A stretch of 64,000 nt of DNA from Rhodopseudomonas palustris HaA2 (GTDB taxonomy: Bacteria; Pseudomonadota; Alphaproteobacteria; Rhizobiales; Xanthobacteraceae): the NCBI RefSeq assembly GCF_000013365.1, contig NC_007778.1, forward strand, positions 4,216,001-4,280,000, written 5' to 3'. Each line of letters opens with the position of its first letter. Positions within the stretch are counted from its first letter, which is position 1. The notes beneath the pieces are model-generated. The model was given only the letters and a program-made list of their open reading frames with translations, did not search any database and had not been told where the DNA came from. Positions 13,910 to 60,662 of the stretch are shown piece after piece. The position numbers and the translations under genes are program-made.

Positions 13910-13947
13910 GAGTGGAGGTGGCGAGCGCTGCTACCATCTCAGCAGCT

Positions 13948-14070
13948 GTCATCCTGAGCGCCGTCATCCTGAGGTGCTCGCCCGCAGGGCGAGCCTCGAA
14001 GGATGCGGACACGAGGGCTGAGCTTGCGGCCCATCCTTCGAGGCTCGCTGCGCTCGCGCCTCAGGATGAC
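13948..14070. repeat. Family D repeats (tcatcctgaggtgc / gcctcaggatgac)
   Basis: A fragment gtcatcctgag is followed by a full unit 13963-14005 and its inverted partner 14032-14070. The same family is at 33771-33936, 40332-40440 and, degenerate, 52499-52549. It abuts the left end of the candidate RNA gene at 14100-14572. Confidence 0.8.
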
Positions 14071-14099
14071 GTTGTGCAAGTTGATCGACCTGTCAAACA

Positions 14100-14572
14100 G
14101 CCACGGCAATTCTCTCTCGCGGCTCCATCGAGCCCGAGTTGTGCACCCGTCGCTGTCACAGCGAGGGGTGGGGGCGCGCCGGCCGGCGCGGGGTTTGGTG
14201 GTTTCTCGCGAGGGCTTGCGATCCCTCGCGCGTCGCCTTCCGGCGCGCCCACCGCGGCGCTTTCTGTCTTCGGGCCCGTGCTTCCGTTGACAGGCAAGGG
14301 TAATGAAACCCCACGGTCCGGCGGATTACGCCGCCTTCGCCTGCCCCCGTGCAGCGAACTAACAAGTCGCAGAGCCTCGTAGTAGGCCCGGACGGGTCCC
14401 CGAAGCCTCCCGGACGCGTGCTTGCGAGGCACGACGCGCAGGACGCCGCGTCTGTTCGATTTCCCCGGCACGGTGCCGGCGTCCTCGAACCATCGTTCCG
14501 GACCGGTTACCCGGCCCGCCGATCTGTCCCGCTTGTACGACGCCTCGCGAAGCGCCCCTCACGGACAGGACA
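14100..14572 (-). ncRNA. Candidate structured non-coding RNA (unknown family)
   Basis: No frame here looks like a protein: the open frames are Arg/Pro/Gly-rich on both strands. The block has many short hairpins, for example cgcgagggcttgcgatccctcgcg near 14213 (stem of eight), ggcggattacgccgcc-type near 14320 and cgtgcttgcgaggcacg near 14418. A sigma70-type promoter on the minus strand (14579-14606) points into it. It is not RNase P RNA, tmRNA or SRP RNA: none of their conserved cores is present. The left end is a guess, set at the family D repeat. An unrecognised mobile or repeated element is the main alternative. Confidence 0.4.
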
Positions 14573-14578
14573 GCGCGG

Positions 14579-14606
14579 ACTATAATCATAATAGGAATTA
14601 TGTCAA
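14579..14606 (-). promoter_or_regulatory. Sigma70-type promoter reading left
   Basis: On the minus strand TTGACA (14601-14606) is followed after 16 bp by TATAGT (14579-14584), in an AT-rich patch that stands out from its surroundings. Transcription would start near 14571. No protein gene begins downstream, which is why I link it to an RNA gene. Confidence 0.6.
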
Positions 14607-14699
14607 GAGGCGGATTTGCGCCGGACGCTCCGCGGCATGCCGGGCCGCAGCGCTAATCTGGTGGTTCCAGAATGTTTCAGCCGCTGCATCCGCATCGCG

Positions 14700-14813
14700 T
14701 CGTCCCCGCGCAGGCGGGGACCCATAACCCCTGGCTTTTCAAGTGAGTAACTCTGCCGCAGCGATTCAATCGGGATGCTGCGGCGTATGGGTCCCCGCCT
14801 GCGCGGGGACGAC
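14700..14813. repeat. Inverted pair of family F repeats
   Basis: cgtccccgcgcaggcgggga at 14701 and its exact inverted form at 14787-14812 (gggtccccgcctgcgcggggacgac) enclose about 58 bp. Each unit is itself a hairpin. This is the only site of this family in the window. Confidence 0.85.
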
Positions 14814-60238: not shown

Positions 60239-60472
60239 GTTCGTCCAATCGTCCGGGATGCCCGCGAAACGCCCGCCGGGTCCACCGCTGTCGGGGTGCC
60301 AAGCCTTTTAGACGCGGGGCCGCGCGCTGTCCAGAAAGTGGGCACATATTCAATCGTTTGCCCCCGTCCCGGGGCTCGCCCCGGCGGCGACGAAGACCCG
60401 TTGATAGCTCGCTGCACTGCGTTGACAGCCTTGCTGAAGCCGTGTTTGTGTCCTACCTGTTGAGACTAAGTC

Positions 60473-60662
60473 GCGTCGGGAGAGATCGGCCCAATCCTTC
60501 AGTGAAGGTGGGCCGGCGCCGAAGGAGCAACCGCCCCGGAAACTCTCAGGCAAACGGACCGCGCGACAGGATGACATCTGGAAAGAGACCCGGTCGGGCG
60601 CAAGCCCAATGCGGGGTCCGCCGACGGGATAATGCTCTCAGGCGCAGCGACAGATGGGGCTC
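60473..60662 (+). promoter_or_regulatory. Tandem glycine riboswitch upstream of gcvT
   Basis: Two aptamers in a row. The first has cgggagag, gccgaaggagcaa and ggaaactctcaggcaaa; the second has tggaaagagacc, gccgacgggataa and gctctcaggcgcagcgac, with a closing tgggg. These are the conserved pieces of the gcvT riboswitch. It ends about 45 bp before the gcvT start, so it probably acts on translation or on a short terminator; glycine should switch the gcv genes on. A TTGACA lies upstream at 60422-60427 without a good -10. Confidence 0.92.

Follow-up and report, generated by a model that had tools for sequence, protein, structure and literature searches.

A multicopy structured RNA gene of Rhodopseudomonas palustris HaA2 and its relatives with a varying self-complementary loop that suggests pairing between RNA molecules

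The window analysed here, a 64,000-nucleotide stretch of Rhodopseudomonas palustris HaA2 (NC_007778.1, positions 4,216,001 to 4,280,000), contains a minus-strand block within roughly 1.5 kb downstream of rpe that a sequence-only reading had singled out as a candidate structured RNA gene behind its own TTGACA-N16-TATAGT promoter (Table 1). That promoter is present and points into the block (minus strand, 14606-14579; score 11/12), and it is the sole such site within 4 kb. As shuffles of the 4 kb give a mean of 0.3 sites, a lone site is weak evidence. Conservation among the copies described below begins at the -35 box and stops at a tail near 14091; the limit first given for that end, 14100, falls a few bases short of it. 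Transcription would be expected to start near 14571-14574. Just upstream of the RNA gene is a perfect 28-nt inverted repeat (14699-14726 / 14786-14813, 59 nt apart), which looks like another dispersed palindromic repeat. Adjoining the 3' end of the gene, at 13945-14084, are short repeats with CATCCTGAG / CTCAGGATGACG, and stretches of about 270-380 nt recur among the downstream flanks of some other copies in this genome.

Table 1. Features of the RNA gene and its promoter, in window positions.
Feature	Positions	Strand	Basis
Sigma70-type promoter TTGACA-N16-TATAGT	14579..14606	-	Motif score; extended motif at copies genome-wide
Structured RNA gene, ~480 nt	14091..14573	-	Covariance models, covariation, fold z, strand test
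5' domain: outer helix 14568-14561 / 14532-14524 around hairpin 14556-14551 / 14544-14539	14524..14568	-	Full-length helices 2, 3
Apical hexaloop TCGCGA, varying palindrome, candidate symmetric kissing loop	14545..14550	-	Loop counts
Hairpins of Rhodopseudomonas type, missing from shorter types in other genera	14455..14523	-	Fold and loop counts
Conserved core, multibranch domain (genome 4230254-4230450)	14254..14450	-	Covariance model R2 match
Core hairpin with near-fixed loop and covarying stem	14372..14389	-	Core helix 4 / full-length helix 12
Core hairpin with GNRA-containing loop	14320..14335	-	Core helix 6 / full-length helix 15
Long G+C-rich helix with inner covarying hairpin 14230-14221 / 14216-14207	14170..14253	-	Helices 17-19
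Two 3' hairpins	14116..14169	-	Helices 20, 21
Conserved tail CGTGGCTGTTTGACA	14091..14105	-	Conservation and genome scan

Used as a query against the HaA2 genome (a single contig of 5.33 Mb), the block recovered 17 near-full copies, 77-100% identical, together with fragments, and is thus a member of a dispersed family. Two covariance models, R1 for the core and a second model, R2, that includes a divergent relative, each found 20 copies in this genome, and a divergent 21st copy (L020) shares the promoter. In this variant (L020:1505-2040, plus strand) the promoter and 5' domain are as in other copies and the core is different. The status of the block as one of some 20 copies, like the palindromic loop described below, had escaped the sequence-only reading. 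An extended promoter motif, TTGACANNATTCCTANNNNGANTATANTCC, which was derived from the RNA copies themselves, occurs at 17 genome sites with up to three mismatches (reversed control, 0), 16 of them at covariance-model copies and one at L020 (position 1797091). Four of the 20 model-found copies (L017, L018, L019 and L022) have no extended motif at this threshold. A looser sigma70-like pattern was also sought in the 75 nt preceding the 5' hairpin of 48 copies, collected later from five genomes; it is present in 35 of them, against 3 for control windows close to the end of the locus.

A covariance-model search of related genomes, which had been put forward as a check, yielded homologues in 119 of 391 sampled host-family genomes (R1; 26 of 47 genera) and a patchy occurrence in other families of the order. 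R1 matched 3 of 297 genomes in the order sample and 1 of 289 in the class sample, the latter being HaA2 itself; R2 matched 13 of 397 genomes of the order, in 11 of 142 genera and, by their labels, seven families, all under the stricter filters used for searches spanning more than 40 genomes, which lose weak matches. Two genomes (G950 and G051) gave weak, unconfirmed matches of 33-39 bits. Presence is patchy at closer range too, as two same-genus genomes had no match, and the genus labelled g272 (genomes of 5.5-8.8 Mb) had no matching row in the family and order samples. Ten other genomes, chosen for having matches, hold 5-17 copies each. Hosts among the matches listed in a pattern scan (at least 120 stretches) include Rhodopseudomonas, Tardiphaga, Pseudolabrys, Afipia and Pseudorhodoplanes, and these have profile matches as well. 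A viral contig fitting the core pattern had no profile match, nor did actinobacterial, Nitriliruptorales, Novosphingobium and Desulfatibacillum records of the same scan; all were taken as chance. Visual inspection of seven outlying loci (L301-L306 and L308) showed three features in every one: the core hairpin, the 5' hairpin and a stretch resembling GTGCGG(C/T)GCC, which reads GATGCGGCGCC in L304. A CGCCGC closing arm can be made out clearly in all but L306 and L308.

The block had been described as having no protein-like frame, and the copies bear this out. Open reading frames run in all of its frames, as is usual for G+C-rich DNA. Those in and around the block gave no Pfam match (six ORFs) and no NCBIfam match (seven ORFs), and each of the six frames contains a stop codon in 62 to 69 of 71 copies. 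Gap lengths are divisible by three in 2,587 of 22,981 gap events, which come from pairwise comparisons and are non-independent. Judged by these alignments, no reading frame is kept across the RNA copies. A conserved peptide, raised at the outset as an outcome that would speak against an RNA gene, was accordingly not seen, and a conserved protein is ruled out by the broken frames together with the lack of Pfam and NCBIfam matches.

Seventy-four near-full copies were aligned, and RNAalifold was run on 71 of them, a gappy row and near-duplicates being omitted. The resulting fold spans the whole transcript and includes many compensated pairs. Compensating base changes had been proposed as a test of the candidate, and covariation proved strong both in the core and over the full length. 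In 41 diverse core sequences, 95.4% of cells are paired, double-change cells number 148 versus 45.8 in shuffles, and the covariation score is 0.393, compared with 0.143 for shuffled and 0.061-0.125 for slid alignments; in 27 full-length Rhodopseudomonas copies, 95.4% are again paired, 46 of 147 pairs change on both sides versus 25.6 when shuffled, and the score is 0.205 (shuffled, 0.111; slid, at most 0.052), the structures under test having come from the same alignments, which biases these values in their favour, and the margins being large. When RNAalifold was applied to a second Rhodopseudomonas subtype (A4, 20 copies), some of the predicted core helices differed; the pair counts above come from the other alignments. 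On its own, the window copy has a folding z of -4.83 versus 100 dinucleotide shuffles.

The strand of the RNA was assessed from the balance of G-U and A-C cells, a test that is independent of the covariation counts. On the promoter's strand, G-U cells outnumber A-C cells by 855 to 173 (71 copies). The best fold of the antisense strand itself shows the opposite balance, A-C exceeding G-U by 147 to 87 in alignment A3 and by 92 to 32 in A2. The G-U excess points to selection acting on RNA made from the promoter's strand. Covarying helices on the predicted transcribed strand, which is the direction of the promoter, and the lack of a kept frame support the proposal that the block is a non-coding RNA gene.

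Several parts of the RNA are distinguished by their loops. For the first hairpin of the Rhodopseudomonas-type insert (loop 14510-14507), 47 Rhodopseudomonas copies were examined; a hairpin could be identified in 45, and 38 of these have a GNRA tetraloop. GNRA is less clear in a third hairpin (19 of 47 copies). In the core, the near-fixed loop reads (C/T)ACTACG(A/G) in 40 of 41 diverse sequences, and a GNRA sequence lies within the loop of the other tabulated core hairpin in 38 of the 41. GNRA loops often engage in tertiary contacts. The tail, CGTGGCTGTTTGACA, occurs at 13 genome sites with at most one mismatch when both strands are scanned, all of them at RNA copies.

The most distinctive element is the loop of the 5' domain. 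In the window copy, TCGCGA (14550-14545) makes up the entire hexaloop of the 5' hairpin (14556-14551 / 14544-14539). The hexaloop is self-complementary in 75 of 86 distinct 32-base stretches bearing the hairpin pattern, one row (L167) having been dropped as a chance match ahead of this count. Eight palindromes occur: TCATGA (26), TCGCGA (18), CTCGAG (10), TCCGGA (10), TCTAGA (8), and ACCGGT, CCTAGG and CTGCAG (once each). Their centres comprise all four self-complementary kinds (AT 26, CG 21, GC 19, TA 9). Swapping left and right loop halves between rows gave a mean of 18.3 palindromes and a maximum of 32 (2,000 trials), and for shuffled letters the corresponding values were 14.6 and 25 (500 trials); the rows are related, so that counts are not independent events, and several palindrome types are found in different families. 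In an untargeted scan of 400 adjacent column pairs across 51 diverse members, the loop centre ranked first, with 71% self-complementary versus 25% expected (runner-up, 57% versus 29%).

The palindrome idea arose from loops that had already been fetched, and a further 60 loci, retrieved later from five genomes, served as its test. The search pattern picked out the hairpin in 48 of these and the palindrome is present in 45 of the 48 copies, the other 12 loci, two of which overlap earlier loci, being left out of the count for want of a recognised 5' hairpin. Counted as distinct stretches, 23 of 26 are palindromic, against a null mean of 5.1 and a maximum of 12. The exceptions are 11 of the 86 distinct sequences, 3 of which are self-complementary with G-U pairs, and 3 of the 48 later copies. 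By pattern, the 20 copies of the HaA2 genome comprise 15 with TCGCGA, two with CTCGAG, one with TCTAGA and two with neither; the loop pattern missed variant L020, in which TCGCGA is visible by eye.

The stem beneath this loop is conserved with weak covariation, and its pairing says little. None of the six pairs of helix 3 changed on both sides in 27 copies. With no bulge allowed, 251 of 375 cells pair over 75 sequences (shuffles: mean 239, maximum 255); with one bulge allowed, at least five pairs form in 67 of 75 (300 shuffles: mean 59.2, maximum 65). The 5' hairpin is contained in the consensus fold and in the 5' domain folded alone, with 14571-14521 forming that domain in isolation; it is missing from the minimum-energy fold of the complete window copy, where the 5' region pairs elsewhere. 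Adjacent bases are unable to pair within one chain, so their joint change points to pairing between two molecules, an argument that passages of PMC12286853 also make for OLE and GOLLD. The adjacent loop bases of this family covary in the manner by which homo-oligomeric ornate RNAs are recognised, which only an intermolecular pair would seem to explain. These observations suggest that the RNA molecules pair with one another via the palindromic loop, and a single palindromic loop would give a dimer, not a cage.

The copies also evolve together within genomes. Copy sites are common to several species, and in 25 of 31 between-species pairs each genome holds a paralogue more similar to its copy than is the counterpart at that site in the other species. 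The pairs are a hand-picked set sharing both flanks, some of which (250-400 nt) may be other repeats, from which two further qualifying pairs (L030-L045 and L030-L054) were left out. The other genomes contributed mainly query-like copies, which biases paralogue similarity upwards, and 17 near-full copies were used for HaA2. The remaining 6 pairs either tie or have the same-site copy as the more similar one for at least one of the two genomes. At the rpe site, the genomes G000 and G002 are 95.3% identical in rpe and 90.4% in 477 bases of flank; the RNA is 87.1% identical between them, and the best paralogue within the genome reaches 92.8%. By these comparisons the RNA copies are undergoing concerted evolution, which gene conversion would explain most simply. 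One copy in G002 (L053) matches L008 in its upstream flank and L011 in its downstream flank, which suggests that it arose by recombination between RNA gene copies; two further loci did not contain the reciprocal junction.

Taken together, we think it fairly probable that the family encodes a trans-acting RNA of about 480 nt, supplied by some 20 homogenised copies, that associates with itself through the hexaloop into a dimer or larger assembly. The sigma70 promoter would drive such a transcript from each copy, and the transcript would fold into the 5' hairpin domain, a multibranch core carrying GNRA-type tetraloops, the long helix on the 3' side and the short conserved tail. About 20 dispersed copies, homogenised most simply by gene conversion, would supply this RNA, and the palindromic hexaloop of one molecule would pair with the same loop on another. 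The product may be a dimer or a larger RNA assembly, possibly with proteins, acting in trans as a scaffold. A more tentative extension, which we regard as possible and rather doubtful, is self-sorting: subfamilies with TCGCGA, CTCGAG and TCTAGA loops would pair only with themselves and form separate homotypic RNA bodies, each kept uniform by gene conversion.

An unlikely alternative is that the RNA is a monomeric, redundant regulator, either a base-pairing RNA or a protein sponge, whose palindrome is bound by a dimeric protein or pairs with targets. The multiple copies, the RNA's own promoter, the conserved single-stranded tail and the nearly fixed (C/T)ACTACG(A/G) loop would all suit such a molecule, and the tail (14105-14091) could bind a partner. 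A protein or target site should, however, fix a sequence, yet eight palindromes occur, and it is self-complementarity that persists. Nor does a complementary target of the tail stand out in the genome, both strands scanned: seven more sites at two mismatches are within the control level (23, reversed pattern). Our searches found no partner protein or target for the RNA.

We hold it about equally improbable that the RNA is chiefly the part by which a non-autonomous repeat replicates or moves, its structure serving its own spread. The roughly 20 dispersed copies, their patchy distribution and the other repeats nearby are what a selfish element might leave, as is an internally deleted relic, two adjacent end fragments, downstream of rpe in one species. 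Of the other 15 Rhodopseudomonas genomes compared within roughly 1.5 kb downstream of rpe (16 in all), 7 have a full copy and 8 have no match. A clean empty site was not seen at rpe, where the region is too variable to show one, and in four loci (L269, L271, L272 and L278) the region downstream of rpe holds differing extra sequence in each species. Against this reading, 17 copies showed no target-site duplication (best shared stretch 4.1 nt, versus 4.4 with mismatched flanks), which also leaves no sign of the IS fragment that the sequence-only reading had mentioned as a competing possibility. Conservation spans the interval from the -35 box to the tail, copies have stayed at shared sites across several species, and concerted evolution likewise speaks against a selfish element. 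A plasmid-borne or phage-borne element was rejected, as plasmid records (three query types) and phage records (two query types) gave no match.

The surroundings of the copies bear on a third possibility, a cis-acting leader of the downstream gene, to which proximity to genes and the presence of a promoter lend some appeal. The nearest ORFs of the 21 HaA2 copies were picked by codon-position G+C, a heuristic that leaves some picks doubtful; on these picks no common neighbour gene was seen. Of the 21 downstream genes, 16 are convergent with the RNA (p = 0.013 one-sided and 0.027 two-sided) and 5 are co-oriented. This arrangement argues for a trans-acting product, and we consider a leader extremely improbable; convergent neighbours would also fit strong transcription of the RNA. 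A DNA-level hairpin element or decayed coding sequence, for which the strong inverted repeats and the open frames noted above could be cited, is just as hard to credit, since G-U far exceeds A-C on one strand only, which is not expected of DNA hairpins, and frames are not kept, the strand test being in the main what refutes it.

The RNA gene matched no family model in Rfam. At the gathering threshold, the RNA had no match in the whole window or in 20 further loci chosen for diversity; the only match in the window is a glycine riboswitch (60466-60571, plus strand). Permissive scans gave ten weak matches around the block, none overlapping the RNA gene, and none in L302. The earlier statement that the block lacks the cores of RNase P RNA, tmRNA and SRP RNA agrees with these scans and with ARAGORN, which found only tRNA-Phe in the window. 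RNase P RNA, tmRNA, SRP RNA, 6S RNA and group I and II introns were rejected for lack of a covariance-model match, as was membership of GOLLD, ROOL, OLE and HEARO at the gathering score. Besides these non-coding RNA and intron models, Rfam holds one for HEARO; those for GOLLD, ROOL and OLE are mentioned in the text of PMC12286853. Our searches of open-access papers turned up no description of the RNA.

Few large structured bacterial RNAs are, to our knowledge, known. The present family has no Rfam match and many chromosomal copies, and it occurs in culturable purple bacteria and their relatives; the putative, readable self-recognition code in its loop makes the role of such RNA assemblies directly testable. 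Self-sorting assembly, if true, would be a chromosomal counterpart, in several families of one order, of phage-borne RNA cages.

Among multi-copy RNA genes that are homogenised within a genome, ribosomal RNA operons are the familiar example; the present family is unrelated to them by Rfam and, unlike them, consists of single-gene units at many sites with differing neighbours. HEARO and omega RNAs are structured, a few hundred nucleotides long and present in several copies, and they accompany transposon nuclease genes, whereas for the window family no Rfam match and no common neighbour gene were seen. OLE belongs to a different host group and has its own protein partners. It resembles the window family in being a large ornate bacterial RNA with a palindrome-switching loop; passages of PMC12286853 describe OLE as an RNA-only dimer whose loop switches between palindromes. 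The window family has no Rfam match to it. GOLLD and ROOL are likewise large, highly structured and of poorly known function. The covariation of adjacent loop bases in GOLLD, read in the same source as symmetric kissing loops between chains, is as in the window family. GOLLD and ROOL are described there as genes of phages and prophages that often lie close to tRNA islands (PMC12286853); the window family, in contrast, was chromosomal in the cases examined, numbers 5-20 copies in each of the 11 genomes counted, undergoes concerted evolution by the comparisons above and lacks a match in Rfam. In 2025, as stated in that source (PMC12286853), homo-oligomers made of RNA alone were newly reported for three natural RNAs, and the window RNA appears to work like these ornate homo-oligomeric RNAs, outside their Rfam families.
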